Source: Obelidium mucronatum (Eukaryota; Chytridiomycota; Chytridiomycetes; Chytridiales; Chytriomycetaceae). From it: 64,000 nucleotides of DNA. Position 1 is the stretch's first letter; every line of letters starts with the position of its first letter. The translations under genes and the position numbers were made by a program. Positions 18,034-45,197 of this stretch are shown piece by piece. The DNA is taken from contig JAIVFH010000026.1 of the NCBI GenBank assembly GCA_025765595.1, positions 280,912 to 344,911 on the forward strand, read 5' to 3'. The notes under the pieces were generated by a model. The model searched no databases and was not told where the DNA came from. It saw nothing but the letters and a program-made list of their open reading frames with translations.

Positions 18034-19227
18034 ATGTCAACATCTACGGACCCCCACACCACCAATGCCAGCAACTCTGCACACACTTATCTGCTTTCGG
18101 ACTTTGTTCAGTTTCCTGTTGCTAGTATCAGCAAGCCATACGAGCCCGACTACACCGCAATGGATCAAAGCGAGGACATGTTGCAGTTAATTATGGCTGA
18201 GACACAGTGGCCGGGACAAGGCACTCAATCTCTTACCAACAGTACCTTCCAAACACCTATGGTCACACCCATTCCATCCCCACTGCCGCTGAAGAGGTCA
18301 CTAGAATCTATTCAAAGTTCCACACCAATGATGGCTTCTGCCCCAAACGGAATCATGATTCCGCAAGACCAAATGGATGTTTACAAATTCCTTCTTGAAA
18401 CTTCGACGGGTTTTGGAAGTTTTAACCCATTGTCAGCTGAGGCACTGTTCCGCAGCCACAGCACATCTTCAACACCGGTCAACACTCCAACTTTCTCCCA
18501 GCTTGAACCGCATTCACAGCATCCGCAAAATCAGTCTCAGAAGCAAAGACTCCTGTCAAACGCAACTCATCATAGATCTAGAAGCTTGGATTCTGATTTC
18601 CTCTCTCTCGTCAGTCAACATCAAAAACCGAAGCGAAAACAGAATACAAGTAGACCCCAATCTACACCGAACTCTCTCTTGTCATCACATTTATTCATGC
18701 CATCGGATCCCAATCTGTCCCAGATCATTCAAAAGTCATACAAATCGCAGCAACATCACAACTTAGCCCTCTTGAATTCCGCCAGTCAGAGTGCGCCGAG
18801 CACACCAGCATCCAAACTCCATTCATTTCTTCCCGTGTTTTCCAGATCTACCAAATGTACCAACAGTGGCAGCAGTAGTAGCAGTATCCGAGAGTATCAA
18901 GTCGAAACTTCAGCGGCTGGATCGAATCCCGCCACATCGTTTCAGCAACAACATACTTCGAAATGTTCAAACTGCAGCGTTACAAAGACTCCAGTTTGGC
19001 GTCGTGATGGAACGAACGGAGCCGTGCTCTGCAATGCTTGTGGGCTCTACTTCAAGATGCACAAGAAGCACCGGCCTTTAGGGTTGAAGAAGGGAGCCAA
19101 GGATGATAAGACGGATATATTCTCTATTGAAGAGGATGGTAATGATAGGAAAAGAGTACGAATGGATCTCTCATTGGGATGCGATACCGTTGCAGAAGAA
19201 GAGGAATCCAGAGAGCAGGACTTATAA
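18034..19227 (+). CDS. GATA-type zinc-finger transcription factor (cluster A, canonical finger)
   Basis: A single exon of 397 residues. Near residue 105 is the shared cluster motif ([20 protein letters not shown]). A long Ser/Gln/Pro-rich stretch follows. The GATA finger lies at about residues 310-335: CSNC, 18 residues including TPVWRRDG, then [11 protein letters not shown]. It is of the C-x2-C-x18-C-x2-C form with the DNA-contacting Trp-Arg-Arg intact. A basic segment ([13 protein letters not shown]) follows. The tail is acidic. It is the most canonical member of cluster A and a good candidate for the founder of the six plus-strand copies. Expected nuclear regulator binding GATA sites; target genes unknown. 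Confidence 0.9.
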
Positions 19228-19818
19228 GAAGAAAAGAAACAGAAGTCGGCTGGGTGCGGAGATATCTAGTTAGAACTTACACGTAGAAAAATTAAACTGA
19301 AAACTTGTGAAAAGCAATACAACGTGAAACATTTGGAATTTCATTCGTTAACAGCCTCACCCCACCAAAATGTAGATTCCCTTACCGAATAATTCCGTTA
19401 AAGAGAGAGGGGCAAGTGAATTTATCTTTGTTAACGCGCAAAGATCTTTGAAGCGGACTCTTTCAAATTCAAGCGGCGAATTATAATCCAGGCACCTTAT
19501 CCTCCAGTTGCAGCAAAAGAGAAACGAGACGCAAAATCTGTGTTTCTTAACGACGCCGCTAGTACAACTGCCTTATCCGTGTCAAGTCACTTCACTCTCC
19601 AATGTCCACAGACGCCTTTCATCCAGTGCACTTCAAAACCGACCACGGTATTGCATTCTTCTTTCCTTTACTCTAAAACTCCAGAATCACTTGATCGCTC
19701 GGTGTAACAGATTCTCTATCCGGCAGCGTCGCATGCGTTTCGAAAGCAGAGACAACAGCAAAAAATAGTACGGAGCAAGTTACGTCGCAACTGTAGCAAA
19801 CCTCTGAGTCCTCTCGTA
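19228..19818. other. Intergenic stretch beside a GATA relic
   Basis: No intact gene is visible. Open stretches are short and carry no recognisable motif. Part of it may be the eroded 5' half of the relic at 19819. Confidence 0.3.
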
Positions 19819-19917
19819 AGATGTGTCACAATTGTTGGAGATGCACAAGGGAATCAGATATGGGTTGCACCTGAAGACGCATGGAATGAATCGACTTAAC
19901 CGGGGGCTAAAATGTAG
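19819..19917 (+). pseudogene. Relic of a GATA zinc-finger gene
   Basis: The frame around 19820 reads KMCHNC, a finger start, then WRCTRESDMGCT after an apparent loss of about eight residues, and then a stop. Shifting frame, the next stretch reads GLHLKTHGMNRLNRGLK, the usual continuation of a GATA finger (CGLYxKxHGxxRPxELKRG). So one internal deletion and at least one frameshift have inactivated a former cluster member. No DQ-x3-YEFLL motif is visible upstream. Remaining sequence to 20202 has no gene. Confidence 0.6.
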
Positions 19918-20202
19918 TGTTAGTACAACTTTCCTGACAAAGACAGGTTTTCATAAGATAGTCTTGGAGAATTGGAGGTTAAATCATATATGTCTTTTCG
20001 ACTGCACAATAAAATCCATTTTGATGGTGCTTTCTTTTTTTTCAAGGGTTCAGAGGTTCGAAAATTTCCCTGCCGCAAAAAATTCCGTTTGAAGAGCGTG
20101 ATTGATTTGGATGAAATTTTACGCTTTCTTTTTTAAAAAAAGAACTCCATTAGACTCTTGTATTTGCACTTCTTGCAGATATCAAGATTGTTGTTTACAA
20201 GA

Positions 20203-20830
20203 ATGTCACTGATTCTATGCCACCCGCACCACTCAACACAAGAACATATCCGCGTCGCTTCCAACGGACACCACATCGAACAAGATCAATATGAAGCATA
20301 CGAATACTTAGTGGAAGTTTCCACGTATTTTGGACAAAGCAAGTCCACAACTTATCAAGAAGAAGTTGCTGGGGCTTATTCTACTTCCGTAAACTCAACC
20401 CCAGCCGCTACGAGACAACCAACCCCTGAAGTTTGTCGGTTGGACACGGTGCCATTCACCGAGAATGTTTTGTCGTCAGTGAACAGATCTGGCACGTCCA
20501 GCATAGACCAAAAAGTCCAACCAGTGTGCTTCAATTCTTTGCTAGCCGAGGCGGAAGAGCAAAAAAAGGCTAAAAACAATTCAAGCAATCAACGCAATAC
20601 CGAGGGACTCTTGGATTTCGAATTGAAGGAAAGTTCCAAGCGAAGACGAACAAATGTGTTTCCAGTGCGGAATCACCAAAACTCCCGTCTGGAGACGCGA
20701 TGCAGAACGTCGCAGATTGTGTAACTCGTGTGGTCTTTATAGAAAATTAACGGGATTGAAACGTCCTGTAGAACTAAATCGCGGAACGCAACAACGTAGA
20801 AAGCGTGGAATAGAAAAAGCAAAAAATTAA
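20203..20830 (+). CDS. GATA zinc-finger protein with a frame break before the finger (cluster A)
   Basis: Frame 1 starts MSLILCHPHHSTQ at 20203 and contains the cluster motif (NGHHIEQDQYEAYEYLVEVS). It stays open to the basic segment ESSKRRRTN. There the reading must move by +1, near 20650, to reach a perfect finger at 20657-20725: CFQC, 17 residues with TPVWRRDAE, CNSCGLYRKL. This is followed by KRPVELNRG and a basic tail ending at 20830. No clean GT..AG intron of the right length avoids stops, so this is either a one-base frameshift, an assembly error or an intron I cannot see. An ATG at 20654 could start a finger-only product of about 58 residues. Finger type is C-x2-C-x17-C-x2-C. Confidence 0.7.
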
Positions 20831-21159
20831 GAATAGATAATAAAATACATATTACTTTTTAAAACAAGTCGTTAACAGTGGATGTAATTATTACCAATAG
20901 AACACTTGTATTCGCAACACGCAAGCGGAAAATTAGACAACAGCCAAGAAAATTTAGTGAACGAACCCTTCAATTTGTTTCAAACAGTGTTTCAGCCATG
21001 TTTCAGAACTTATTTTTGAAGTGGCAGCTAGGAAAAGAATCATTTTCAACATAGAACCGCTCATTAAAATGAAATTTAAATACTCAAAAAGCTATAAGAA
21101 GTAGTGCGGTCAAGGAGAAGAGTGGGGTAACTGCTATCTAGTGTCAATTCTTACAAATA
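20831..21159. other. Intergenic region
   Basis: AT-rich spacer between two cluster A genes, with no gene or repeat that I can recognise. It presumably holds the promoter of the gene at 21160. Confidence 0.35.
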
Positions 21160-21620
21160 ATGCCTCATACGCCACTTCAAGTTGTCCACAACGACCAAAG
21201 AGAAATATATGAGTTCCTTTTGGAGGCGGCAAGTTGCCTAACTTCTCGAGCGGGTCGCAGTCCATCACCAACTCCATCGCTATACCACCAGTCCTCGAAT
21301 GGGAGCTACCACGATATTCAAACCCGAGATAAGCAGCAGTTATTTTTGGACTTGGCCGGCAACTTCTACCATTCATCTCAATCTGCGTCATCAGCCAATC
21401 TTCTTTGCCTTCACCGATTGAGCCTTTGATTGAAAGTTGTGGAACTCGAACTCCTTCCGTTTGCAGAAGAAATGCGGCTGGGGGAGTCATCTGTGACTCG
21501 TGCTCCATTTTCCTCAAGTCAAAAGGACTAACAAACACCATGGAACTGAAACGTGGAATGGTCTCAAAGCTTCGACGAAAGGCTACTGGTGCTCAAGTGG
21601 ACAAGTTTCAACCATACTAG
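21160..21620 (+). CDS. GATA-derived protein with remodelled finger C-x7-C-x9-C-x2-C (frame break)
   Basis: MPHTPLQVVHNDQREIYEFL begins at 21160, so the shared motif sits at the very N-terminus. The frame is open to about 21400. The finger (21438-21503) lies in the -1 frame, reached near the run cttcttt at 21400, and reads SCGTRTPSVCRRNAAGGVI followed by CDSC. Compared with canonical GATA fingers, the first Cys is replaced by Ile and the invariant Trp by Cys, keeping four cysteines. A conserved basic tail (LKRGMVSKLRRK) follows. The frame change may be a one-base deletion or a small intron; I found no convincing splice pair. Activity is uncertain. Confidence 0.6.
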
Positions 21621-22013
21621 AAGGAGAGAGGGCTGCGACGGAATAACTCGATAGAAGAAAGCCAAAGAAAAATATTTAGACATTAAAATTAAAGCATTAG
21701 TACAATTTTTGATGATGGTCATTCCGTATTGATGTTACAAGCTACAATCCGATAATCCGATTATCGCTTTTACGTATATTGTGTTGCAAAAATTCATTTT
21801 CGCAGTGAGCACGTCACCGCCTCAAATTAGAATCACAAGGAAATTTTACCTGAACGATCAACAGAGATTTGAGGTTGAAGATCTCTTGTAAAAAAAGTCT
21901 TGGAAAGAGAGACATGCTGCTGGACCAAACCTGCCCCTTCTTCGAATATTCCAGCCCTCCTCAAACACCGAATATGCATCCTTCCATCGTCAATTGCGTA
22001 CAACCACCACCGC
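21621..22013. other. Intergenic region with a possible alternative N-terminus
   Basis: Mostly AT-rich spacer. Near 21914 an ATG opens a Pro/Ser-rich frame (MLLDQTCPFFEYSSPPQTPN) that looks like GATA-family N-termini. It is out of frame with the gene at 22014. It could be an upstream exon or a decayed start. Confidence 0.35.
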
Positions 22014-22427
22014 ATGATAGCTATAATCCCTGAAGATCAACGAGACGTGTATGCCTTTCTAGTCGAGACGGCAAACTGCTTCGTAAACAACAGGGATCTA
22101 AGTCCTGAGAAATCTGTATCTCCTACTTTTGGCCCCATGGCCACTGATTTGGTTTCTCTGGTCTTCGATTCTTTCATTCTACCATCAGCGAAGGATCATT
22201 TGCCAATCACACCGATTATTCCTTCTTCACGTCCGGCGGGATGCGGAACCAATACACGTTCAATTTGTCGTTGGAGTGTTTCCGGAGGAAAGACATGTCC
22301 TCCTTGTTCCTTTTATCTGCAGGCGAAAGGAATCAAAAGCCGCTGGTCGGGTCGAGGCTCAGTGAGTAGAATCAGGCGCTTGAAAAAGGAGGAACGGGCA
22401 AGGCTTAAAAGTAAACAACAGCATTAG
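22014..22427 (+). CDS. GATA-derived protein with remodelled finger C-x7-C-x9-C-x2-C
   Basis: An intact 137-residue frame from MIAIIPEDQRDVYAFLVETA, which is the cluster motif right at the start. The remodelled finger is at 22242-22307: AGCGTNTRSICRWSVSGG followed by KTCPPC. The first canonical Cys is Pro and the Trp is Cys. The C-terminus is strongly basic (GRGSVSRIRRLKKEERARLK), nearly the same as in the next two genes, which argues that this tail is under selection. With one DQ motif, one finger and one basic tail it looks like a minimal GATA-like protein. Whether it binds zinc or DNA is unknown. Confidence 0.75.
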   Translation: MIAIIPEDQRDVYAFLVETANCFVNNRDLSPEKSVSPTFGPMATDLVSLVFDSFILPSAKDHLPITPIIPSSRPAGCGTNTRSICRWSVSGGKTCPPCSFYLQAKGIKSRWSGRGSVSRIRRLKKEERARLKSKQQH

Positions 22428-22708
22428 AACATACCAGCACGTGAATAAAAATCATAGAAGCATTTATCTTCTTATTTTCAGCACGACTCGTTTACGTATC
22501 GCAATATCAAAATATAACATGAGGGGGCACCTTCCAGAAATCTAACAATATGAAAATTTTACCAATTTCAACAAATCGAAAAACTCTAAATAACGTTTCA
22601 AGTTCCAGTTTGAGTTGACTCCAAGGCTTTTTTGATATAAATATCATTTACTTTTCTTGGCTGGTTTTAGAGTTGTCATTCATTATTATTTTCTTTGATA
22701 AACAAGCA

Positions 22709-23325
22709 ATGATGAGGATTGAAGCCCCGCTTACCCTGCTTCAGCCAATCAATCCATTCTCGATGAGTCAATTGGATCAAATTGATGCATACGGATTCCC
22801 TACTAGAAACTTGTTCGTCAACAAGGCCTATCGATGGCTCAAAACGACTTCCCTCTATTGAACGAGCTGCTCTTTGATACTCCTGCCTTCAACTCAACAA
22901 ATGGCCTGTATTTCTCTGGAATGTATTCCGGAGAATTCCTGTTTACTCCGACTGCACTGATGACAATGATGCTACCTTCGCCATTGGAAATGATACACTC
23001 TTTTGATTCACTCTTACAAATACCCGCCGAAGCTTCTTTATCTTTACCAATGGCGCCAATCATTCCGTCTTCACCACCATCCCAGAAAACACTGGTATCC
23101 CACCAAAAAGCCGAGAACGATACATTTCCCTGGTGCGGAACAACGACACCATCGATTTGCCGATTAAATATGTCCGGTGGTAAAATCTGTACTTCCTGCT
23201 CAGTATACTTGCAATCTAAAGGGATCTCTAAACGTTGGGAGGGGAGAGGATCTGTGAGTCGATTAAGACGGGTTAAGAAGGAAGAAAGGCGAGATGAAAG
23301 GAGTAAACGAAAGGACATTAAATAA
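22709..23325 (+). CDS. GATA-derived protein with remodelled finger C-x7-C-x9-C-x2-C (frame break)
   Basis: An upstream frame from the ATG at 22709 carries a weakened cluster motif (MSQLDQIDAYGF). The main frame from the ATG at 22834 (MAQNDFPLLNELLFDTPAF) is in the -1 frame relative to it and holds the finger at 23134-23199: WCGTTTPSICRLNMSGG followed by KICTSC. The first canonical Cys is Phe and the Trp is Cys. The basic tail GRGSVSRLRRVKKEERRDE is conserved with its neighbours. The main frame alone gives 163 residues and may be the real product. In that case the DQ motif has been lost from it. Confidence 0.65.
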
Positions 23326-23513
23326 ATTTATAGACAAATGATAATTTACTTGCGATTTCGAATTCAACCCTATGCGTTTTTGTGGTTCAAAGAGTGTGCA
23401 CGAAGTCTTGGAAGCCTCAAATGGAATTTTTGATGATTCCAAGAATCTGGAACATCATAAATTGAACCGGCCAAGAGGACATCATTAGTAAGTCGACTTC
23501 AAATCAACTGCAA

Positions 23514-23936
23514 ATGATGATTTCTTTAAAAGAAGTACCTCGTGATCAAAAACAGGCCTATGAATTCCTCCTGAGCGTTGCTCATTCCCTTCACGCTGTT
23601 TGCGAGCCACATTTGACTGGTACTCCAAGCGCAAGCCCCGCTTTAGCTGCACGCCCAACGGAGTCAGCGATTTCAGCACATTATGACCTTGACTGTTTTG
23701 TGCCTGGAATTGAAGGGAAATCAGTGCTAGGAATCACGCCTTCACGTTGTGGGAGTACTACAATACCAATTTGTCGTTGGTCTGCCAAAGGATCATATTC
23801 ACAACGTAAAATATGCGAAACCTGTGAGAATTACTTAAAGAAGAAATGCGTGCCCAGACGTTTGGAGCTAACTCGGGGCAGTGTGTCTCGATATCGAAGA
23901 AGGATGAAGGTGGAGAGGGAGAATCGAATAAAATAG
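23514..23936 (+). CDS. GATA-derived protein with remodelled finger C-x7-C-x13-C-x2-C
   Basis: Intact 140-residue frame. The cluster motif is at the N-terminus (LKEVPRDQKQAYEFLLSV). The finger at 23748-23825 reads RCGSTTIPICRWSAKGSY, then SQRKICETC, so it has four extra residues in the loop. The first canonical Cys is Pro and the Trp is Cys, as in the three genes upstream. The basic tail is LTRGSVSRYRRRMKVERE. It is the last plus-strand member of cluster A. Confidence 0.75.
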   Translation: MMISLKEVPRDQKQAYEFLLSVAHSLHAVCEPHLTGTPSASPALAARPTESAISAHYDLDCFVPGIEGKSVLGITPSRCGSTTIPICRWSAKGSYSQRKICETCENYLKKKCVPRRLELTRGSVSRYRRRMKVERENRIK

Positions 23937-24126
23937 AATTATAAGGGGATTATACATTGGCCGTAGAATTGACTCGTATTATTTTCTTAATTCATGATAA
24001 AAACCGACAATGCCCCACTTCCGCCATGTACTTTCCGTCAACGGCATGTTGCCTCCAAAGCCAACACCCGATGAAGGATTAAAAGGTAATAAGGAGTTGT
24101 TACGGATAAATAAGTCGGATGTGTTT

Positions 24127-25380
24127 TTAGTTTTTTGCAAACACAGACAACGCGCCATTTCCTCCGCAAATTTGGCTTGTCTTTCCATCACAAGACATAT
24201 TACAACTTTTGCTCGAAACAGCATGGTTGTTGCCGAATTTAATGTCCGCCCAACACTCTGACGAATACTCCACGCCAAAAATCGTGTACCCGGCGAGAGT
24301 CGCCAAACTGGCGCACAACTCAAGGGACATGCCACCCTTTCCACTAAGCTTATTTCGAAGAAGCCGCTTTTCATTGCTGTCTTGGTAACAGTCGACGTAA
24401 CGATATCCTTTGAGGGAAGGGGTGGGTCGTCCAACAAACCTAACCATTCCCCACGACGATGGATCGTGAACTGTGCTTTGTCCATTCATACTAGCCCACA
24501 CCCACGCATCACTCTGGCTTGTTTTAGCGTAATTTCCATTTCCATCGATTGTGAGTCCCCATTGACTTCTAGCGAACTGAACTCTTACGGAGTCACCGTT
24601 ATTGGGCGCACCTTGTTTGCTAGAGAATCGCGAGACTCCAGCCCAAGGTATAGCAAGTTCAACTGCCCATCCTCGATCAACATCACCAGGTCGATTCAAA
24701 GTTCCTTTCACTCGAACTTTACTGATTAACCCGCTAATTTCATTTGGACTTGTTGCGTGACCTACTTGGTTGTACGGCTTATCCAAACTCAATTGCCATG
24801 TTGTTCCTAATGCGTTGATTTCGAATTCATAATAGTTGAGCCCATCGCTTTCCGGGTCCAAAAAAACTTCAAAGTTGTTTTCCAGGTAGAGTGGGGAGTT
24901 TCGCGTTTTCATGTTCGCCCACACATCAGGGTCTTGTAAACGGGCTCCAATATACAAATATTGATTGTCCCAGAGCATCATCGCAGTAGTAGTGTATCGT
25001 GGAGTGGGGCCATTACCAGTGATATCAATGAAAGTTGATGTTGACGCAGCGTTAGACCAAGGTCCAGACAGGGATCCATCCAAAGGAGGTTTCTTGGAAG
25101 TGAATTTGCAGGAATAAGTAGGAGCGGAAAGTAATTGGGCATTTGAGGCAGATTGAGACCCAACTCCTGGAATAACCAAACAGACTCCAACAAACACAGA
25201 CCACTTGATACGCGACTGCCCAGTAGTCGACTTCCGAATCCTTTGAGAACCAGCCGATGTCTGTTCGCGCTCAATAAGCTGATTGAGCATGATGTCAGTT
25301 TCGTTTGAGCAATTTAATTGCAGATGCTTCTTGTTCCACTCACGATTTACAGCAATTAACTTATTCCGCGACACCCCCAT
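24127..25380 (-). CDS. Membrane-anchored CBM9-like protein with one WSC domain
   Basis: Third member of the family at 3898 and 6140. I start at MGVSRNKLIAVNREW (25380); a later in-frame Met before LNQLIEREQ is possible. One membrane segment (IKWSVFVGVCLVIPGVGS) precedes the CBM9-like domain with LWDNQYLYIGARLQDPDVW and NNFEVFLDPESDGLNYYEFE. A single WSC domain closes the protein (GYRYVDCYQDSN, ECWAD, CNMSC, CGGNGALSVFAKN). This WSC is most like the fourth WSC of the gene at 3898, so the copy probably arose from a precursor that lost or never gained the inner repeats. It lies between GATA cluster A and the mitochondrial pair. Confidence 0.85.
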   Translation of the reverse strand: MGVSRNKLIAVNREWNKKHLQLNCSNETDIMLNQLIEREQTSAGSQRIRKSTTGQSRIKWSVFVGVCLVIPGVGSQSASNAQLLSAPTYSCKFTSKKPPLDGSLSGPWSNAASTSTFIDITGNGPTPRYTTTAMMLWDNQYLYIGARLQDPDVWANMKTRNSPLYLENNFEVFLDPESDGLNYYEFEINALGTTWQLSLDKPYNQVGHATSPNEISGLISKVRVKGTLNRPGDVDRGWAVELAIPWAGVSRFSSKQGAPNNGDSVRVQFARSQWGLTIDGNGNYAKTSQSDAWVWASMNGQSTVHDPSSWGMVRFVGRPTPSLKGYRYVDCYQDSNEKRLLRNKLSGKGGMSLELCASLATLAGYTIFGVEYSSECWADIKFGNNHAVSSKSCNMSCDGKTSQICGGNGALSVFAKN

Positions 25381-25456
25381 GTGAACTAGCCTAGCCAATC
25401 AGTTATCGTGGTTTTATTGATTCGTGATGGTCAAAATAGCGTGGGGTTAAACACAT

Positions 25457-26582
25457 TCATAGTCCCTTCTCCTCTTCAAGCACGCGTGGATGAATTAAAA
25501 AGTTATCCAAGTCAGCAACTTTCCAGGACCCATCTTCAGGAAATTCCTTGACGAAATGCGATGTCTCCATCCTCACACTTATTCCATCCAAATCAACGGA
25601 GCCAGAAGCCACGACAGCCCCATCGGAAACCTGGGTCAACGAATACCCCAACTTCATATCACTTCCAGATACATCTGAATCAATGGCTAGCACCTGTCCC
25701 AACAGCATGACTTTTCGTTTCCATTGAAAATCAGGAATAGCAGCCATCACACCGTCCTCTGCGTCTTCATCGCCTTCGAGTTCCCCGGGTTCATAGACGT
25801 ATTCGAAACAGATTTCCCGGAATATTTTGCGTTCCAAAGGGATTTGGAGACCATTTGTAGATGAAGGGCGCATTTTACCAGCAGTTGGTTTTGTGATAAT
25901 CTTTCGCGTGAATGCAACCAAATGATATCGCGAGGTAACTGGTCCACGCAAGAGAGTTGAAGTGGCCATATGTTCTTCACCAAACGTGATCCAAAAGTGT
26001 TTGGGCGTTACGTTGAGACCCTCTTCATCCTCTGCATCTTCTTTTGTTTCGTTGTGATTCCACTTGAGATTCAAAATAACGTCTTCTTTGAAGAGTCCTT
26101 GATGTGCTTTACTTAGTTCCGTCAATAGGCCATCTGCCACGCAGGTTCTTAGGGAGAGGCCTTGTGGTGATTGCAAGTCTCCGTCCCACCCACTCAGGCG
26201 CTCAATGACAGCTGGTAGAGCGTATTTAACACCGTCTTGGAATTGATCAGGAAAAAAGTCAGGAGAGTCTTTGGCTTCTGGGTGGAGTGTTGAGGGGGTG
26301 CCAAATCGACCGTTGATAAATCCCGTCCCTAAAAACGAAGCACTCTGTATTTGATGACTGTGCGTGGTTTTTTCGCTTTAGTTTACCTGCAGTGAAAGCC
26401 ATCTTTAGTCGCATCGGCATCAGGATGGATCGTTCATGCCAAGGGGCTCCTGGGAACTGTTCGAAATATCCCCGTCTGCTTTCACTTAGATCCAAGAGGC
26501 GGATGGGGTAATTCGCTAGGAGTTCTTTGGAAAAGATTGGCTGGGAAGTTGTGAAGTGACGTGTTGCGAGTCGTTTTATCAT
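25457..26582 (-). CDS. Mitochondrial MAIP1/Tim44-like protein, copy 1
   Basis: Two exons. MIKRLATRHFTTSQPIFSKE (26582) is a plain mitochondrial presequence. A GTAAAC..TTAG intron joins MAFTAG to TGFINGRFG. The body has FFPDQFQDGVKYALPAVIE, RLSGWDG and a C-terminal half with FWITFGEEHMATSTLLRGPV and GSWKVADLDNFLIHPRV. The layout recalls human MAIP1, a matrix protein interacting with m-AAA protease, and Tim44-like folds in general (helical lead, sheet with an IxFG strand, end in W-x-I/V-A). I know this from memory only, so function is tentative. The next gene at 26754 is a tandem paralogue. Confidence 0.6.
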
Positions 26583-26753
26583 TTTCTTTATTAAATTACT
26601 TTTATTAATAATACACGTATCTTTATTTCTTTCTTTCTTTGAGCCATGTATCCCGGAAGATAATATACAATATTCAAGTGGATATCCTGACATTAAGGGT
26701 TTGAGGTTGTTCTATTTCAGCAAAGGCGGTATATTCTCTCTCCCAAAGCAAGT

Positions 26754-27856
26754 TCACACTGTCAAAACAGGTTTCCTCTCCTCCTCCACAACCCTCGGAG
26801 ATATCAAATAATGATCCACATCCGCAATCTTCCAAACCCCATTCTCTGGAAACTCTTTCCCCACAAAATGCGAACTCTCCATCCTTATTCCCATCCCCGC
26901 CAAATCCACATCCCCAGACTCCACAACAACACCATCTTCCAACCTTGTCACCTCGAAACTCAGCATACTAGCCAACACCGTGGAGTCCACAGCAACTCTG
27001 CGGCCCATGGAAGCGTCTGATAACCTGACTGAGGGGACTTGCCAAGGAGGGATAAACTCAAAGTCTTCACCCAGTCCTTCATCATTATAAACGCATTCTA
27101 AACAGACATCCCGCCATACATGTGTTCCTTGCGTGTTGTTGTTGCGGTTCGTGTTGGAGGCAGCAATCCGTCGGGTGAACATGACTGCATCATCGCGGTC
27201 CACCACAGGCCCTCTCAGCAACGTACTCGTGGCGTTTTTGAAGGTTCCAAACGTGATCCAAATGTTATCAGGAGCCACAGGGAATGCGCCCGTGTTTGTA
27301 TCCAAGAAAGACCCAGCAATAAAGCTATCGTAGCGGAACGATATACTGTGTCCGCTTTCGGTGATTAATCCATGTATTTTCGAGAATGAGTCAAGAAGTG
27401 TTGGTGTCATGATCTTGGTGAGTTGTACATGTTGCTGTTGGTGGTGGTCCCGTCCCATCCACTTAGACGATCAAAGAGAGTGGGTAATGCTTGGGAAACT
27501 CCCTGTTGAAATTGCCGTGGGTAAAACGGCTTTCCGGAGTCCGTTTTGAAACACAGGTTCAGAAAGGTTTTGCCGGCAAATCGGGCCAGTAGTAAGCGGA
27601 CGGGAAGTGAAACAAGTCTTTCGAATCTAAATATTAATAGTTTTTTTGGTTGTCGTTGAGCTCTTGTTTGTGCATTGTGGAGTGGGTTTGCAGTGTTGAC
27701 ATACAATGAGGCATTGGGAGCTGGAAAGTCAAAGTAGTTTTTTCGTTCGATCTCTGCAGGATACAGTCGAATCGGGTATGAGGCAATCAGCTGTTTGATT
27801 GAAGGAACCGGCGGTCGATTTTGGGTTGTTGTTGAAAAGGCCCTGAAACGAAACAT
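26754..27856 (-). CDS. Mitochondrial MAIP1/Tim44-like protein, copy 2 (frame change inside)
   Basis: Tandem paralogue of the gene at 25457. MFRFRAFSTTTQNRPPVPS (27856) is a mitochondrial-type start. SIKQLIASYPIRLYPAEIE and QQGVSQALPTLFDRLSGWDG follow. The downstream half (LTKIMTPTLLDSFSKIHGLI, IWITFGTFKNATSTLLRGPV, WKIADVDHYLISPRV) is in another frame. The switch is within 27407-27458, right after SGWDG. I see no normal intron there, so a one-base change or assembly error is likely unless a short unusual intron is used. Both halves are well conserved with copy 1, so any break is recent. Confidence 0.58.
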
Positions 27857-27999
27857 TAATAATATTATATTATCCAAAAGAACTTTTCTTTGACATCACA
27901 GATTTATTTATAATACAATAATATATATGTACAAAATACAAATATCAGGGAAGTAACGAGGAGGTAATTCAAGTCTTGGCAATAAATGGTGCCAATTAT

Positions 28000-28284
28000 T
28001 CATCGCTTGGCTTTTGGGCGTGGTTCAAATCCTTCAATCAGCCTGCGTAAAGTCTCTACTTGGAACGGAGACAGAAGTGGTCGGGATTCATTCGAATTAG
28101 AGCCACTGCTGCTACCAGTACTCCTGCCAGGGGAGCAAGTCCGCGTCGGCTTTGGGTTACATGCGATAGTTGTAGCTGTTTCGGGTTTTTGCCGCACGAG
28201 CAGTTGCTTGGTCAACAAAGAGATGCTAGAGTTGTCATCTTGTTGCTTTCGCGGGGAATACAATGGTTGCTTTTCAAAGAGCAT
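28000..28284 (-). CDS. Short hypothetical protein
   Basis: A 94-residue open frame from an ATG at 28284 with Ser/Pro/Arg-rich middle and a possible helix near the end (LLSPFQVETLRRLIEGF). I do not recognise it. The opposite strand is also open here, so coding status is uncertain. Confidence 0.3.
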   Translation of the reverse strand: MLFEKQPLYSPRKQQDDNSSISLLTKQLLVRQKPETATTIACNPKPTRTCSPGRSTGSSSGSNSNESRPLLSPFQVETLRRLIEGFEPRPKAKR

Positions 28285-35201: not shown

Positions 35202-35797
35202 TTGCTTCTTCTTTTTTTTTGGTCTTTCCCAAAAGTATACTGGAGATGGGATAGATCCGGATAGATTGGGGGCGGTGGGGTGGTTATTCGTTTCGGAATA
35301 CAAACAAATTTTTTCTCAAGAAAAAAACATTTTCCGTTTCCGGTTCAGAAAAAAATTTGATTTCTCATCGGGCAAAGCAACCCGCGACAAAATCACGGGA
35401 TTTGTCGCGTGTGGGCTTGACGATTTTATTTTTTGTTTCATCTTCTATTTGCCCCATTCCTGTTCAAAGTCTGGTCTTTGCTTCCCCCTTTTTTAGGCAA
35501 AACATCTTTCCCACCTTTGGCTGACGCACTCCCCAACGTATAGCGACGGAGTTAAACTGTGTACGTAAGCCAATACAACAGGTTCGAATTTCAAAGTATT
35601 TTTTTTTGAATAACAAATTTCTTGGTTCTTCACCAGTGTCCAGTCACGCCACGAACGAGAAGAAAAGGACTGTGTTTCGCCATAAATGAATGCTCAAGTT
35701 TCTCTATTCCGCGCCCCCCTGCGGCCCTGTCAAGAATAAGTTGAATAGCCACCGAATCATGCCTGTTTGAAGTCTTGGTATGTGTGTTGTGGCAACA

Positions 35798-35798
<1 letters not shown>

Positions 35799-35832
<34 letters not shown>
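35799..35832. repeat. Poly(A) tract of 34 bases
   Basis: An uninterrupted run of A on the plus strand. No flanking direct repeat or retroelement body was noticed, so I treat it as a simple repeat. Length may vary or be misassembled. Confidence 0.8.
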
Positions 35833-35834
<2 letters not shown>

Positions 35835-35953
35835 TGCCGAAAAGATCTCATTATCGAAGAAGGCACACTTTTTTTTTTTATATGGCGGATACGGATCAGA
35901 ACACAAAGCGTGGCAAGAACAAAAAACAAAGAACCAAGAGATTTTATATATAT

Positions 35954-35970
35954 ACACACACACACACACA
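35954..35970. repeat. Short CA microsatellite
   Basis: An alternating AC run next to a short TA run. Confidence 0.8.
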
Positions 35971-36002
35971 GCCAAACAAACAAAAAAAACTTATATTTCA
36001 AT

Positions 36003-36893
36003 CTATCGGTTCCGCCTCTTCACCTCCGCCTTTCTAAACGGAAACTCTGCCGGTCGATTCGTTCCATGAGCCTTCAAATACAATGAACACGCATTACAAA
36101 TAACATTGTTGAGTGGATCACGTCTCCAGACACTTGTTTTTGATGAAAGGCAGTTTACGCAGTGTAAATTAGGGTTTATCTTTCGGACCTTTTTGGGAGG
36201 TTTGGTGTCGTTGCTGCTGGTGTTGTCTTCTTCTTCGTCTAGAGATTTGGTGCATTTCTTTCGGCGGCGGTGGAGGTGGTGCGGTTTCGTGGCAGTGGCA
36301 GTGGCACTGGTGATGGTTGAGGAAGACCGAGATTTTCTTGGAGATGATGATGTGGTGGGAGGTGGGGAGCAACTAGAAACGGAGGAGTAGCTGCTGTCCA
36401 TATATGAATCCTGTTCCGAGGTTGGTGAATCACAGGACTCTGAATCGGTTCTCGTTGTTGACTGATGTTGTTGGTTTGAATACATCTCCATCTCTTGTTT
36501 CACACAGGTTGTCTCCGGGTACTGAAGCACGGTGGTGGACAGTGATGATGGATCAGAGAAGTGGGAGAGTTCAGAGAGGCCGGGGGTTCCCGGACTGGGA
36601 GTATTGTCATCGTCTCGGCCATGATGATGATTAAGGGGCCCATTGTTATTGAAGATTGTTTGGATGCTCATTAGGAAGTGGTAGGTGTCTGCTTGATCAG
36701 AGTGAATCAATGTTCCATCTGCTGCTAGAGTTGTTGTTGATGTCGCGGCGGCAGTGGCAGTAGGCCGTTGGAAGGACATAGTTGTAATGGCAGAAGGCTT
36801 TTGGAAGGGTTGAGACCTTCGGTGAAAGTGGTAGTAAGATTGCCGGATAGATTCCAAGTGGTCCAGGGCTGCCAGTCGTTCTTGGGGGTTCAT
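36003..36893 (-). CDS. GATA zinc-finger protein (cluster B, finger near the C-terminus)
   Basis: A single exon. MNPQERLAALDHLESIRQSY starts at 36893; the open frame upstream lacks an ATG. The cluster motif is DGTLIHSDQADTYHFLMSIQ. Ser/Thr-rich sequence and a basic patch (HHLHRRRKKCTK) precede the finger: CVNC, 17 residues with TSVWRRDPLN, then CNACSLYLKAHGTNRP. The Gly normally after the fourth Cys is Ser. The protein ends only about 15 residues after the finger (KAEVKRRNR). Otherwise canonical and probably able to bind DNA. Confidence 0.85.
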   Translation of the reverse strand: MNPQERLAALDHLESIRQSYYHFHRRSQPFQKPSAITTMSFQRPTATAAATSTTTLAADGTLIHSDQADTYHFLMSIQTIFNNNGPLNHHHGRDDDNTPSPGTPGLSELSHFSDPSSLSTTVLQYPETTCVKQEMEMYSNQQHQSTTRTDSESCDSPTSEQDSYMDSSYSSVSSCSPPPTTSSSPRKSRSSSTITSATATATKPHHLHRRRKKCTKSLDEEEDNTSSNDTKPPKKVRKINPNLHCVNCLSSKTSVWRRDPLNNVICNACSLYLKAHGTNRPAEFPFRKAEVKRRNR

Positions 36894-37454
36894 TTTTTTT
36901 CGAGAGTCTAATTTGTTAGGTGTCTTTCTCCCTTTTTTTTTGCTTGGGAGATATTGGGAGGCGTGGCCACGGCTTGAACGGTTGCACAAGTTGGTCGCTG
37001 GTCTTGGGATGGGATGGGATCAAAAGAGTTGCGGTCGGTCGAAGTAGTTATTCAAACAACTTTTTTGAAGAAGGTGTTTCAGCCTTCAGGTTTTTTATGC
37101 TTACTTTTTGGATGATTCTTGGCTCCCAAAGATTTGCGAACATGAAAAAATTTCATTTTCACAGTCATTATTTCCCAATTATTTCGCGCGATTGGTGATC
37201 GGCTTGAATTATTTTGGAGATGTGAGGTTCACAAAAAAAAAGAATTACGTTATGGCGTCCTTTTTTTGTGCTGGTGCATGACTTCAGTTTGTTGCTACTG
37301 ACTAATAGAACTATGCTCATTCATTTGAGAACGCGAAAGAAACGAAAACAAATAAATAACAAACAGAATAACATTGCTGAAGCAAAATTCGGCGATCTTG
37401 GAAACAACTGTTTTATTTGACACTTAAACACATAATTTTATATCTTATTCTTTG
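36894..37454. other. Intergenic region
   Basis: Spacer between two minus-strand GATA genes. No gene, RNA or long repeat recognised. Confidence 0.35.
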
Positions 37455-38003
37455 TTATCTATCCGTTTCCTTTTCATCTGGATGCTTTGCTTTGATCAAT
37501 CTCTTTGTGCGAGGAATAATATCAGGTTTCGACTTGACGGGTCGGGGTTTCCCGTTGGCACGTGAATATATCCCGCATTTATTACAAAGTAGTAGATGCG
37601 TGGATTGGTCTCGACGCCAAGCAGGTGATTCCTGGGTTCGACAGTTTGAGCATATTGGAGGGTTTGAATTCCGTGGTCGTCGTCGCGTTGTTGGTTCAGT
37701 GTTGCTTTGTAACGACGATGATGAGATTAGTTTACTTTCTTCTGATACTATTGGCAGTGGTTGTTGTGGCGGCGGTTCAATTTGAATCAAATTGGGTTGT
37801 TTCAGAATACATTTGTCAGCAATAATTGGTGATGTTGTGGAATCGTCGTTGTCGCCGATAAGGAATTCATATATATCTCGTTGATCGCTGTGTATTATTT
37901 TCCCATCAGATGCAACTGTGCTGCTGCTGCTACTCGATCCTGGAATGGCTGGTGGATATGATTCTGGTTGCAAGTCGTTGAAGCTTGTGTTTGAATAAGG
38001 CAT
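37455..38003 (-). CDS. Short GATA zinc-finger protein (cluster B)
   Basis: A single exon of 182 residues (MPYSNTSFNDLQPESYPPAI at 38003). The cluster motif DGKIIHSDQRDIYEFLIGD is near residue 35. The finger reads CSNC, 18 residues with SPAWRRDQSTH, then CNKCGIYSRANG, so Trp-Arg-Arg is preserved. KPRPVKSKPDIIPRTKR follows. It is one of the shortest complete members, with almost only the motif and the finger. Confidence 0.85.
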   Translation of the reverse strand: MPYSNTSFNDLQPESYPPAIPGSSSSSSTVASDGKIIHSDQRDIYEFLIGDNDDSTTSPIIADKCILKQPNLIQIEPPPQQPLPIVSEESKLISSSSLQSNTEPTTRRRPRNSNPPICSNCRTQESPAWRRDQSTHLLLCNKCGIYSRANGKPRPVKSKPDIIPRTKRLIKAKHPDEKETDR

Positions 38004-38344
38004 CCTGCCGCATCCAGGAAACCCCTTTTTTAACTCCGCTTTCTTCTTTTAAAAGATGGGTGTGCTGTTACACCCAAATTACTGGTTCGTTTTACTGGTC
38101 ATTTGGTAATGAGACCTTGAAATGGAATTCCAAACAACGGAATAGGGGTATTTTTCAGTAAGACGATCTGGTATGCTGCGGTCCCGATCTTCAGGATATA
38201 GCAATGTTCAAAGATTTGAAATGCGAGGCGGTGCTTTGAGGTTGGGTGTCTAGTTAAGCACCTCCCCCTCCCTTGCTGAATAAAAAAAGGCATACTCCAT
38301 TTGACTATAATACAGGGATTTTTATTATTATGATTCTTGTCTCT
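38004..38344. other. Intergenic region
   Basis: Spacer with no recognised gene. It lies upstream of the gene at 37455 and downstream of the one at 38345. Confidence 0.35.
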
Positions 38345-38989
38345 CTACTTTCCAGGATATCTTCCAAAATCCCTGAAATGCTGACGACAACTATTGCAGA
38401 CTATTTGGCTCTGATTCCGTTTCCACGCTGAACTGACTGTAGTTGCACAGCTTGGACAGGCTGCATGTGAAGCAATTACAGGCTGTTTCTTTTTTCGAGA
38501 TGGTGTTGGTTTTTGGTCAAGGTGTGGGATTGTTGGGCTTGGTGACTCCAGATGACGGTGTTGCTGCGGGTCCATTGACAGTGGGTCTGTTGATGCGGAA
38601 GACGTCATTGTCGGTCCTTGGTCTTCCAGTTTGATTTGATTGTGTAGTGGAGGCGGTAGTGGTGGTTTCTGAAGGTCTCCAGAGATCTGCAGGAGGAACT
38701 CGTAGATCTGAAGTTGGTCGTAAGCAACGGATACACCATTCGAGGCGTTGAATAAGCGGGCATCTGTTTCGTCTTGTTGTTGTTGTAGCAGCATAAAGTC
38801 CTCGTTTGTTTTGTATGAAAAGCCATTGTTGTTGTTGTGATGACAAGACATTGCGGGATGGCTGGCGGGAAGATAAGATGGTTCATGATGACTCCATTCG
38901 TGAGGAGCGGAGTGGTGGTAGATGTGTTGCATGGGGGGAAGTCGTGAACTGGTTTCGGTAACAAATTTCGAATGCCACAGAGAGGGCAT
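38345..38989 (-). CDS. GATA-like protein with shortened finger (cluster B)
   Basis: A single exon of 214 residues from MPSLWHSKFVTETSS. The cluster motif is intact (NGVSVAYDQLQIYEFLLQIS). The finger is eroded: CPSC, 16 residues with SSAWKRNQSQIV, then CNSCRQHFRDFG. Trp is retained but the first Arg is Lys, the loop is shorter, and the usual CGLY is CRQH. The protein stops six residues after the finger region, so the basic arm that contacts DNA is missing. Zinc binding is possible; DNA binding is doubtful. Confidence 0.8.
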   Translation of the reverse strand: MPSLWHSKFVTETSSRLPPMQHIYHHSAPHEWSHHEPSYLPASHPAMSCHHNNNNGFSYKTNEDFMLLQQQQDETDARLFNASNGVSVAYDQLQIYEFLLQISGDLQKPPLPPPLHNQIKLEDQGPTMTSSASTDPLSMDPQQHRHLESPSPTIPHLDQKPTPSRKKKQPVIASHAACPSCATTVSSAWKRNQSQIVCNSCRQHFRDFGRYPGK

Positions 38990-39273
38990 CTCTTGTTCAA
39001 AATTGAGGGTGTTTGAATGAGGCGGTGCTTATGTCCGTTTATAATCAAAAAGAAGTAACAAAAAAATTTGTAAGCGGCCACCAATCAAAAACGCTCTGTG
39101 ACAATCAAAAAACTATATCCAGGATTGTATTGACTGTGTCAAACAGACTCAAAAGACTGCATAAAATCAAAAAAAAATATATATGAACAGAATTACAGAA
39201 CGATAGGGAGACAAAAAGAAAAGAGATACATATTTCATAGGGGAAAAGTCGTTTCAACGTAGCGAAAACACTT

Positions 39274-40116
39274 TTAAAACATCTTTTTGGTTCTCTTTCC
39301 ATTCATTCGCTGCTTTTTTACAACCACATCAAGCGGTCTGTCCATCCCGTAGGCTTGAAAGTGCAAGCAACAACCGCTACAAGCCGATTTCCCTCCCACC
39401 TGCATCTCGACACTTGCACTTCGAGAATTACAGTTGTAGCATCGCTTGCTCTTCCTCTGCTTTCCTGGCGCCGCTGCCGCCGCGGCTGTTGCAGCCGCCG
39501 ATGCTGTTGTTGATGGAACTGCGTTCAGCGATTGGTCTCTTCGCCGTTTAACGCCTTTACTGGCTTTACAAATCATATCATTCAACGATCGGAAATGTAA
39601 CAAAGTTGGTGAAGGTAATGCAAATTTGGAGGTTGGAGATGTTGGTGATGAAGGGAGAACTGGTGCCGTCAATAGAGCTGTAGTTGTTCTGACGGTGGTC
39701 GTATTGATCGTAGCAGAGGAGCCAGCAAGTGGTGAAGACAGTGATGTATTGAACTGAGACGAACTTTCAAGGAGGAATTCGTAGACTTGACTTTGATCTT
39801 CTGCAATCAAAGCACCATTTGATGCAATGGTTTTCAATGAGGAAGGTGTAGTTGTTGGCGTGGTTGGGAAGGAGAAGACGCCAGCGTCGAATCCGAAAAA
39901 GAATGGCTGTTGCTGATGGCTGAGTAATTCCAGAGGACTGGCAATGCTCATTGTTGGGCTGATCATAGAAGGACTCATTGTTTCCATCATGAGATCCAGA
40001 GGGAAATCTGGGAATGGTGTCGCCATGGTGTCGATTGTTATGGGCGCGGCATGTTCTCCTTTCAATTTGTGACTACTGCTGTTGCTGCTATCGGCATAGA
40101 ACAATGAGGAATCCAT
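39274..40116 (-). CDS. GATA-like protein with Trp-less finger (cluster B)
   Basis: A single exon of 280 residues starting MDSSLFYADSSNSSSHKLKG at 40116. The cluster motif is a model example (NGALIAEDQSQVYEFLLESS). The finger keeps four cysteines but little else: CYNC, 16 residues with SASVEMQVGG, then CSGCCLHFQAYGMDRP. The invariant Trp is Glu and both Arg are gone. The region after it (LDVVVKKQRMNGKRTKKMF) is basic. This looks like a finger retained for folding, not for GATA recognition, while the N-terminal motif stays conserved. Confidence 0.8.
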   Translation of the reverse strand: MDSSLFYADSSNSSSHKLKGEHAAPITIDTMATPFPDFPLDLMMETMSPSMISPTMSIASPLELLSHQQQPFFFGFDAGVFSFPTTPTTTPSSLKTIASNGALIAEDQSQVYEFLLESSSQFNTSLSSPLAGSSATINTTTVRTTTALLTAPVLPSSPTSPTSKFALPSPTLLHFRSLNDMICKASKGVKRRRDQSLNAVPSTTASAAATAAAAAAPGKQRKSKRCYNCNSRSASVEMQVGGKSACSGCCLHFQAYGMDRPLDVVVKKQRMNGKRTKKMF

Positions 40117-40584
40117 TATGATAGGGGGTTTTTTTTGTTGAAAGATTGATAAATGTTTTTTTTTTCGAAAGGGGAGACATTGACAGTTGTGAGTGTGTAA
40201 AATTTCATGATTTTCAGTTTCGCGATTACCAAAAATGTCATATTCCCCACACGAAACTGATGGAGTCGTAGAAATAGGGAAAATTGAATGCAATTGAAAG
40301 GTTTAGACTCAATTTTCGCTCATTCACAACTTTCCCTGGGTAAGGGAAGAGGATCCGGTCGACGGACCTCCTCAGATCCAAGCGGTGTCGAAGAGAAGTG
40401 AGCCGTCCGGTAGTACCTTCTGTTCAAACACTATCAAAACTTCCAAAAAACACCGTCAACATAATTAGGATATGCGTCTCTATATTATTCTCTCAACTAA
40501 TCAAAAAATTGGTATCGAAAAAAAAGACTCCGAGAAAATGAGACTCAGAGTCGCCTCTATTATATCTTTGTTTTGGCGTAATTG
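40117..40584. other. Intergenic region
   Basis: Promoter space of the gene at 39274. The frame upstream of its ATG is open for about 180 nt but without a start. No other gene seen. Confidence 0.35.
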
Positions 40585-41031
40585 TCAATCGTCTCGCATT
40601 GAAGCTTGATACTCTGCTTTTGCTTTTTTGTCAGCGTATATTCGGTAGCAGGTGTTGCAAAGAACTCGTCCCTGGTCATTCCGCCGCCATACATATGATT
40701 GTGTAGTCTTGCAGTTATAACAATAAGGTTTATTTGATTGTAGAAGTTGCTGCGGTTGTTGTCGTTGTTGTTGGTTGGGGGAATGGGATTCTTGTTGGGC
40801 TTGAGTTGAGACCGTTGGAGTCAACAAAGCGGGGAGACGCTTGACTTTGGGTATGTTATCATTCGAATTTCCGTATTTCGGTAGTATTGGAGGGGAAGGA
40901 AGTAATATGGGGGTGGTATTTGTAGGAGGGAAATCTTGAGAAACGTTGAGCAGATACTCATACACGTCAAGCTGATCATTGGCAACCAAAACGCCGTTTG
41001 AAGCTTGAACCAAAGTAGAATTTGACGCCAT
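40585..41031 (-). CDS. Short GATA zinc-finger protein (cluster B)
   Basis: A single exon of 148 residues. The cluster motif lies at the very start (NGVLVANDQLDVYEYLLNVS, about residue 12). The finger is CYNC, 17 residues with SYVWRRNDQG, then CNTCYRIYADKK. Trp-Arg-Arg is kept, but the CGLY after the last Cys is replaced by CYRIY and the protein ends soon after, so the C-terminal arm is missing. It is the outermost minus-strand member, facing the AreA gene divergently. Confidence 0.82.
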   Translation of the reverse strand: MASNSTLVQASNGVLVANDQLDVYEYLLNVSQDFPPTNTTPILLPSPPILPKYGNSNDNIPKVKRLPALLTPTVSTQAQQESHSPNQQQRQQPQQLLQSNKPYCYNCKTTQSYVWRRNDQGRVLCNTCYRIYADKKAKAEYQASMRDD

Positions 41032-42009
41032 ATCCAGAGATGATAAAGTACGGTTTTCGTTCCAAGAGTACTAGCAAAAAAAGCGAACTGAAGCCAAACT
41101 TTCAAAAGTGGAGATCTAGCTCTTTTAGAGAGACCTTTTCAAATGTACGAAAAATTCAGTTTCGGTATTGTTTTTCTCTCGTGCTTTTTTTAATCTCGTT
41201 TAATATATACGCTTTTTTTTGCACGGTGTCTTGAGTGTCTGGGTGCTGAGGGGGTTGTAGACTAATTTTTGAAAGCAAGACTCCCTGGAATCAGCTGATG
41301 TGATATCCCAGCGCCTGCTTACTAAATGAGTTGATAAAAAAAGAGAATACAAGCTACGTGCGAGTATTCCATAGCTGTTTGAGTATTGGCTGTGTTCGTT
41401 GCGAGCGTAAGAGTCAACCACAAAACTGCTTAAATCTGACATTGTCATACTATGTCGTAAATACTACATTCACAAAACGTCTCTAACATCCGCTGATTAT
41501 CTAAATGCAATTAACCAAACATTGTATTAACTCAGGTTTCGTAAATATTCTTCAAGGAGAAGAGAAAGAAAGAAAAAATCACAATGCTCTTCAAGAAATA
41601 ATGAACGAAGCTGAAAGAATCGATTCAAGTAATTTTGTGTTTATTTGCAGCGATTATTAATATCATGTGGATGGGAATAGCTGCAAATAAATCGCAGATA
41701 ACATTGTCTAAAGCTAGCGGATACCTTGTGCTTGATATATTTTCAATTCGTTTCAGCAGCGAATCAGCGATATCTGGTTGTTGAAGCTGCGTTAGGGTTG
41801 TGTGGCGCGAAGTTGAATCTCAAGATTGAACAAGACACAAAGCCACACCTTCACTGCAAATTCAATGCGCAATACTCGAACATTAAAATCAAACCCAGAC
41901 CCACTACGACTACCGCAGGCGGCCAAAGTGCCCAAGCTGAAACCAATAAACCCCCGAACAAGTCGAACCAACAAACATTGAATTTTTCAGTTTTCTACTT
42001 TGATACTTT
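41032..42009. other. Divergent intergenic region upstream of AreA
   Basis: Nearly 1 kb shared promoter space between the minus-strand GATA gene and the plus-strand AreA/NIT2 gene. Several GATA-type tetranucleotides occur (for example around 41630-41735), as is common by chance in AT-rich DNA. No gene recognised. Confidence 0.35.
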
Positions 42010-44099: not shown

Positions 44100-44135
<36 letters not shown>

Positions 44136-45197
44136 ACAACAGGAGCAACAGGGCGGCCTGCAGTTCAAGAGTTTAAGTGTAGCCGATTTGACAAGCTTCT
44201 ACAAGGCGAGTCAAATCAACAGCGGCATGTACCCAATGGTTGGTCAGAGTATGCAACCACAGCAACAACACTTTATGCCTGTCCAACAAAACGAATACAC
44301 AATGAATTCTATACCAGAACGCGTGGTTCCCGATCAACCACCCACCAAGAAAAACAAACGTCAATTGAACGAATTGAGTTCGTCGTTTGATAATTTGTCA
44401 TCCTTCTTGAATCAGCCACCTGCTCAGCTCCAACAGCAGCAGCAACAACAGCAGCAGCCGCAACAAAATCCCATGTCACAACCTCTGATTATAAACAAAG
44501 TTCCCTTGTTCCACAACAAGTACCAACAACCCCAACGTCCCCAGGATCTTCAGCCAACTTCAGTACCAGTAGCCCAGCCACTAGCAGTGCCGAGCAACCG
44601 AAATCGCCACCTGTACTTACAAAACTGCCAAAATCCCATTCAACAACAAGTTTAACAAGCCTTTCGAACCAATCATCGTCATCGTCTGGTGGTGGGAATT
44701 CATCAGTCTTGGCATCTGGGCCTCCTCGACGACAAATATCCATCCCAACAACTGCGCATTCAAAGAGTTCAGCGGCTTCGACACGGGAGAGACCCCCACG
44801 AGCAGCAGCCGCCGCGGCAGCAGCGGCTGTAACTGTCCAATCCCCTCCAGCCGCGCAAGTCCCATCCACAACAGCACCCACCGCTGCAATCTCATTTGCT
44901 CCAGCCGCAGAAGGCGAAATCCAATGCAAAAACTGTATGGCAACGCAAACCCCACTATGGCGACGCGATGGAGAAGGGAACCCAATCTGTAACGCGTGTG
45001 GCCTGTTTTATAAACTGCATGGCGTGCAGAGGCCGGTTGAGTTGCGACGAGATGTGATTCGAAAGCGGAATCGGGGGAAGAAGGGGGAACCGAAACCTAC
45101 GGGGGCGGCGGAGGGGAAAGGTAATGGGAAGGGGGGTAAAGGGAAGAGTGTGGTGGTGGTGAAGGATGAAGATTTGTTTGGGGAGATGGATGTCTAG
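42010..45197 (+). CDS. areA: AreA/NIT2-type nitrogen-regulatory GATA factor
   Basis: Probable orthologue of AreA/NIT2/Gln3. Exon 1 (42010) has DUF1752: [15 protein letters not shown], then [20 protein letters not shown] and [26 protein letters not shown] intron (about 42827-43074) joins [16 protein letters not shown] long exon is rich in Gln, with CAG/CAA tracts around 43985-44150 and 44430-44470. The C-terminal exon holds the finger: CKNC, 17 residues with [26 protein letters not shown] and then [14 protein letters not shown], very like AreA. Between the second Gln tract and the finger the reading frame changes (near 44430-44520), through an intron or a tract-length change. It is the only member with a full AreA signature and likely ancestral to the array. 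Confidence 0.85.

Follow-up and report, generated by a model that had tools for sequence, protein, structure and literature searches.

Few DNA-binding domains of animals, plants and fungi are as conserved as the GATA finger, whose four cysteines and tryptophan are usually deemed untouchable. A 64,000-nucleotide stretch of the Obelidium mucronatum genome (hereafter the window; the final 64 kb of the 344,911-base contig JAIVFH010000026.1, or C26, in a genome of 48.3 Mb) carries four genes in which two of these five residues are exchanged. According to excerpts of PMC4999995, the treble clef draws its first two zinc ligands from the knuckle and its last two from the start of the helix. Lineage-specific or fast-changing GATA fingers are on record, among them the upstream degenerate finger of nematode ELT-2 and spider Fuchi (excerpts of PMC7712238 and PMC9535882), and of the published spacings found, the closest is that of nuclear-receptor zinc finger II, a zinc-holding C-x5-C-x9-C-x2-C (excerpts of PMC8741843). 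The four genes (g1-g4, for genes 1-4) form a tandem series on the plus strand, immediately downstream of a gene whose finger is canonical (Cys at 20657), and encode proteins of 140-204 amino acids. On balance we lean towards reading their product as a GATA-derived finger in which one ligand of a single bound zinc would have moved, with Cys in place of the Trp standing in for the lost first Cys, the basic tail kept and recognition probably changed or weaker.

The altered finger and its conservation

Each gene was compared with its counterparts in two further copies of the locus, copy b (C26:180502-183355) and a third copy on contig C338 (C338:1-2375). As the initial annotation had described, the four window fingers translate as CGTRTPSVCRRNAAGGVICDSC, CGTNTRSICRWSVSGGKTCPPC, CGTTTPSICRLNMSGGKICTSC and CGSTTIPICRWSAKGSYSQRKICETC:

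21438..21503, plus strand: g1 finger, C-x7-C-x9-C-x2-C; first Cys is Ile, Trp is Cys; 22 bits with the GATA hidden Markov model (HMM)
22242..22307, plus strand: g2 finger; first Cys is Pro, Trp is Cys, with a Trp two residues later
23134..23199, plus strand: g3 finger; first Cys is Phe (window and C338) or Asn (copy b), Trp is Cys
23748..23825, plus strand: g4 finger, C-x7-C-x13-C-x2-C; first Cys is Pro, Trp is Cys, with a Trp two residues later and a four-residue loop insert

The position of the first Cys, three residues upstream of the Cys with which the finger now starts, holds Ile, Pro, Phe and Pro in g1-g4, and the Trp position has a TGC or TGT codon in all four genes, each one base away from TGG; both observations agree with the earlier description. 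The final C-x2-C pair is intact in all four window fingers. The loop between the canonical second and third Cys (Cys2 and Cys3) was also correctly given, at the canonical x17 in three genes and x21 in g4. The Trp position, described as seven residues after Cys2, is properly Cys2+8, with seven residues in between. The Cys quartet is complete in 10 of the 11 gene copies. A Trp stands two residues past the new Cys in g2, g4 and a homologue from Siphonaria (3/5 sequences), at a position that holds Arg or Lys in most canonical fingers compared. An alternative register, shifted by one residue to align the T-P pairs, was rejected; it requires two compensating gaps, and the P-I-C-R of g4 stands in register with canonical P-V-W-R. 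Six-frame translation of 20 windows shuffled base by base gave no instance of the finger patterns. When the window and all fetched loci (314,102 bases in total, with overlaps counted repeatedly) were searched for a five-Cys intermediate, with the first pair kept and Cys at the Trp position, only low-complexity frames matched, and no replacement ligand is conserved in the 30 residues preceding the finger (five sequences, by eye).

Descent from GATA fingers is apparent from several comparisons. A profile of the variant family searched against the PDB returned 14 chains at E<=10, all of them GATA-1, -2, -3, -4 or AreA (best E 1.6e-8), and in each of the three alignments displayed the finger matches without gaps, Cys opposite Trp. 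An HMM built from 13 canonical fingers of the Obelidium genome likewise places the new Cys of g1, g2, g3 and Siphonaria in the Trp column, gap-free from Cys2 to that point, with a one-column gap after it, where fingers with an 18-residue loop carry an extra residue; its match to g4 spans the second half only, and g4 is placed by loop length and by P-x-C-R. Common descent is further indicated by the locus itself, by an N-terminal DQxxxYxFL motif and the start of the tail, both common to the variant genes and the canonical neighbour, and by a basic tail behind the finger in all five sequences. The family pattern C-x2-C-x17-20-C-x2-C is nevertheless absent, none of the five having the first Cys (Ser in Siphonaria), and the Trp of T-P-x-W-R is Cys in all five. 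Because these two defining features fail, we class the proteins, on their sequences, as a GATA-derived variant outside the GATA finger family proper, its probable source being a canonical GATA transcription factor encoded within the array.

The initial annotation had proposed a search of other chytrids, and a second genus does carry the pattern. P0001, a protein of 165 amino acids from Siphonaria sp. JEL0065 (E 7e-22), is the sole database match outside the Obelidium genome; Siphonaria, like Obelidium, belongs to the Chytriomycetaceae. P0001 has C-x7-C-x9-C-x2-C and GRGSVSRLRRIKKEER, and it lacks the N-terminal DQ motif. With 63% identity to g2 across the aligned portion and 60-62% to the best-matching Obelidium frames, it is no copy of an Obelidium gene, though its source species is to be taken with care. 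The protein searches covered word-sharing candidates whose length was 0.55-1.75 times that of the query; within this scope, relatives elsewhere numbered one among 22 candidates and two among 4618, one of the latter being g1 itself, and a query with the canonical neighbour returned a single Obelidium protein (1/97 candidates), with no Siphonaria counterpart or synteny seen. Among 19 fingers, g1-g4 and P0001 form one clade (support 99/98), and masking of the first-Cys and Trp columns leaves it intact (99/99, 14 fingers). Since g1 branches first (97/95 with 19 fingers; 90/84 with 14, masked) and Siphonaria is nested among the rest, the exchange is, on this topology, older than at least one duplication and than the split of the two lineages.

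Neutral substitution rates, named beforehand as a finding that would overturn the idea, are strongly rejected for finger plus tail: the ratio (omega) of nonsynonymous (dN) to synonymous (dS) rates is 0.128, with a log likelihood of -926.24 against -962.96 at omega = 1 (10 rows), and the ratio is only approximate because dS among the paralogues is near saturation. Between locus copies, pooled dN/dS for g1-g4 is 0.41-0.44; of the three copy pairs, two were put to a Fisher test (p 0.001 and 0.0095). All four Cys fall among the 16 invariant columns of finger plus tail. None of these columns holds His, Asp or Glu, and no column of the full-length alignment is invariant for one of them either, which leaves the four Cys as the only unvarying candidates for zinc ligands. 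Silent TGT/TGC variation occurs at every one of their positions. The chance of all four being conserved is 0.003 by the hypergeometric distribution (four of 16 invariant columns among 64) and about 1e-4 in a codon simulation with the estimated omega and approximate codon frequencies, in which 244 of 2464 Cys columns remained Cys in all four genes (taken to the fourth power). The single clade, also when masked, the second genus and the rejection of neutrality uphold the earlier proposal of one ancestral change retained by selection, and the finger so retained is probably a working one.

A proposed moved zinc ligand and its rivals

Under the reading we favour, which is also the simplest, the Cys at the former Trp position would take over from the lost first Cys, and the resulting C-x7-C-x9-C-x2-C would probably hold one zinc. 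The helix Cys pair and one knuckle Cys would stay, the missing knuckle Cys being replaced by a Cys eight residues on, and the second pair would still open the helix. By analogy, the wide first pair is chemically reasonable, because nuclear-receptor zinc finger II combines x9 and x2 with a wide x5 pair. In g2, g4 and Siphonaria, the Trp at new Cys+2 would, on a strand, direct its side chain as the lost Trp did, and our guess is that it rebuilds the hydrophobic core. The retained basic tail probably holds nucleic acid. The DNA-contact residues of GATA fingers, known from GATA-1 and AreA, are partly lost here while the tail is retained; sequence recognition would be changed or weaker because the Trp and the N-A between the last Cys residues are gone, and it is this loss of the canonical N-A that makes altered DNA recognition, as first suggested, plausible. 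The gene products, short and probably nuclear, would make up a small family confined to this lineage and may serve as modified regulators or competitors of the adjacent canonical GATA factors, and from their sequences altered recognition or competition seems more likely than unchanged GATA binding. A wider proposal, which we put forward tentatively and at somewhat less than even confidence, is that a zinc ligand of the treble clef migrated to the core Trp position, that the core was rebuilt one step along the strand, and that this gave a new DNA-binding family with spacing like that of nuclear-receptor finger II, older than the split of Obelidium and Siphonaria.

Several observations weigh against the moved-ligand reading. 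The main reason for grading it no higher is the poor AlphaFold2 model of the g2 finger (six rows), which has a mean predicted local distance difference test score (pLDDT) of 58.1 and two helices only, with no hairpin. The canonical neighbour (four rows) reached 78.0, with finger blocks near 90 and a hairpin plus helix, as an easier case, because solved structures include many canonical GATA fingers. The g2 prediction would fit either a metal-dependent arrangement foreign to the program or a finger no longer folding as such; the suggestion of a new fold gains no support from it, AlphaFold2 giving no confident model. All four genes also miss the Pfam GATA cut-off (PF00320, 26.8 bits), with 16.5 bits for g1, 12.8 for g3 and no match at E<=1 for g2 and g4, against 44.5 for the canonical neighbour. 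In the copy b version of g4, one of three g4 copies, Ser replaces the third Cys. Tree length among the paralogues is 8.6, with dS close to saturation. Some ratios between copies are high on few changes: dN/dS is 0.91 over the whole of g4 between window and copy b and 0.59 for the pooled finger part between copy b and C338, the g3 finger part in the latter pair having five amino-acid and no silent changes. Finally, the P0001 record is labelled UNVERIFIED_CONTAM.

The helices modelled at low confidence in the former finger would also suit proteins in which tetrahedral zinc binding is lost, the Cys are kept for a redox switch, a disulfide or contact with another protein, and function resides in the helical basic tail; the roughly equal conservation of tail and finger and the third Cys lost in one g4 copy point the same way. 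We consider this rather unlikely, since apart from that copy the four Cys are invariant over four paralogues and a second genus, with silent codon change, their spacing is exact to the residue in 4/5 sequences, and the N terminus has no signal-peptide-like look (by eye only). Zinc might instead be held between chains, the helix C-x2-C joining the cysteines of a partner (either a second chain of the protein itself or its canonical GATA neighbour), with dimer contact made by the wide first pair. Inter-chain zinc sites such as the zinc clasp and zinc hook are known (excerpts of PMC7614390), and several related proteins come from one locus, but four invariant Cys are enough for a single-chain site, and we judge this arrangement improbable.

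That the genes are decaying duplicates with fingers reduced to unconstrained GATA relics might be read from the frameshifts of the window copy, the Cys lost in one g4 allele, weakened fingers in other array genes and some pairwise dN/dS ratios that are high on few changes. The rejection of omega = 1 contradicts it, the frames are open in two other copies, and Siphonaria has the same four Cys and the tail; between window and copy b, moreover, pooled finger plus tail has a dN of 0.009, compared with 0.046 in the N-terminal part, though dS is lower too (0.028 vs 0.098). Decay is therefore very improbable. The window copy differs from the others by several one-base indels, and sequencing or assembly error likely lies behind some of its frameshifts. 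As the source of the Cys pattern, such error has next to no probability; it had been named as a possible refutation and is excluded, because independent copies, two for g1 and three for each of g2-g4, and a second species show the same pattern.

Genes, tails and copies of the locus

The variant genes, their tails and N-terminal motif and the canonical neighbour are placed as follows:

20203..20830, plus strand: canonical GATA neighbour, finger Cys at 20657; C-x2-C-x17-C-x2-C with Trp; Pfam GATA 44.5 bits
21160..21620, plus strand: g1; frame-broken in the window, open in copy b (151 amino acids)
21184..21258, plus strand: N-terminal motif of g1, DQREIYEFLLEAA; also in g2 at 22026, in g4 at 23535 and in the canonical neighbour at 20275
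21552..21617, plus strand: g1 basic tail, RGMVSKLRRK...
21914..22427, plus strand: g2; 170 amino acids in copy b and C338
22350..22424, plus strand: g2 basic tail, GRGSVSRIRRLKKEER...
22709..23325, plus strand: g3; frame-broken in the window, 204 amino acids in C338
23242..23322, plus strand: g3 basic tail, GRGSVSRLRRVKKEER...
23514..23936, plus strand: g4; 140 amino acids, open in all three copies
23874..23933, plus strand: g4 basic tail, RGSVSRYRRRMKVER...

The tail GRGSVSRxRRxKKEER, at first ascribed to all four genes, is present in full form in g2 and g3 (and Siphonaria) but not in g4 (TRGSVSRYRRRMKVER) or g1 (KRGMVSKLRRKATG); a core, RGxVS[RK]xRR, is common to all five sequences. The canonical neighbour has an ELxRG basic tail and the DQ..Y.FL motif in common with the variant genes. 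Its frame is broken in the window copy and open in copy b (208 amino acids). Small indels break the canonical neighbour and three of the four variant genes (g1, g2 and g3) in the window copy; in g2, a one-base insertion cuts off the first ~35 codons, and an in-frame ATG remains at 22014. Copy b is inverted on the same contig, 94% identical to the window, and has all five genes open, whereas the C338 copy, 98% identical, starts after g1 and has g2-g4 open. The variant genes thus total 11 copies (two of g1, three each of g2-g4). Protein searches of the genome found no others, the remaining hits being either chance matches or other GATA genes of weak similarity. In the protein database searches only g1 among the four was recovered as a deposited protein, P0002 of Obelidium mucronatum, identical to the g1 frame of copy b.

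The surrounding region (window 18034-45197) is densely packed with an array of GATA genes, which occupy both strands; genome-wide, GATA matches number 69 at E<=0.001, haplotype copies included. The N-terminal motif is found again in other GATA genes of the locus: Qxx[VIA]YxFL[LV] has nine matches in the window, in nine genes, and one loose match in 19 loci from other contigs. Other array genes, on the minus strand, differ in their own ways. The gene at 39274-40293 has C-x2-C-x16-C-x2-C with all four Cys and has lost the Trp (Glu in the ungapped register), a different type of loss within the same family, and those at 38345-38989 and 40585-41031 retain Cys and Trp, with the tail after the last Cys pair shortened or not GATA-like.

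The array is duplicated in inverted orientation at C26:149000-186400, matching window 18145-28014 and 35535-45316 in pieces that are 93.8-95.8% alike, and contigs C338 and C102 match parts of it. Gene conversion or recombination is suggested by sequence likeness, because C338 resembles the window at g3 and copy b at g4. Inside copy b, about 10 kb (C26:166600-176500) has no match to the window; it holds frames that, by eye, look like integrase and reverse transcriptase from two copia-type retrotransposons. A second deposited Obelidium mucronatum protein, P0003 (208 amino acids), is the copy b counterpart of window 18034-20830. Its gene model fuses the finger of the 18034-type gene with that of the 20203-type gene into a two-finger protein; the 20203-type gene of copy b is also a complete frame by itself.

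Comparison with known finger types

The retroviral-type CCHC zinc knuckle is C-x2-C-x4-H-x4-C; the variant fingers have no conserved His and differ from it in spacing. The term zinc knuckle, used in the initial annotation, is also wrong in treble-clef usage, where, in excerpts of PMC4999995, the knuckle is the first Cys pair, which is broken here. The variant resembles nuclear-receptor zinc finger II in spacing only: its last three Cys are likewise separated by x9 and x2, and its first pair is wide as well. It differs in its first spacing (x7) and in having no finger I before it. The receptor DNA-binding domain pairs C-x2-C-x13-C-x2-C with C-x5-C-x9-C-x2-C, the variant is a single finger, and none of the 14 PDB matches is a receptor.

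The GATA-type finger (PF00320; GATA-1/3/4, fungal AreA), which binds zinc and (A/T)GATA(A/G), agrees with the variant in descent, in the Cys2-Cys3 loop length of three of the four genes and Siphonaria, in the last C-x2-C ahead of the helix and in the basic tail at the same place. The variant differs from it in lacking the first Cys, in having Cys for Trp, and in x-x-C-[SE]-x-x where GATA fingers have N-A-C-G-L-Y. ELT-2 and Fuchi differ from the variant in that the excerpts of PMC7712238 and PMC9535882 describe them as keeping the Cys pairs or both fingers and describe no Trp-to-Cys exchange; more broadly, among the literature matches listed (titles, starts of abstracts and passages, from papers outside subscription), none reports a lost first Cys with a Trp-to-Cys exchange. 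If the moved-ligand reading is true, a selected family that has exchanged two of five key residues would show a metal site shifting within a fold with function kept, and the locus offers paralogues and canonical neighbours together for a direct experimental test. Divergent GATA fingers are already known, and judged by its sequence the exchange of first Cys and Trp appears to be a new variation among them.

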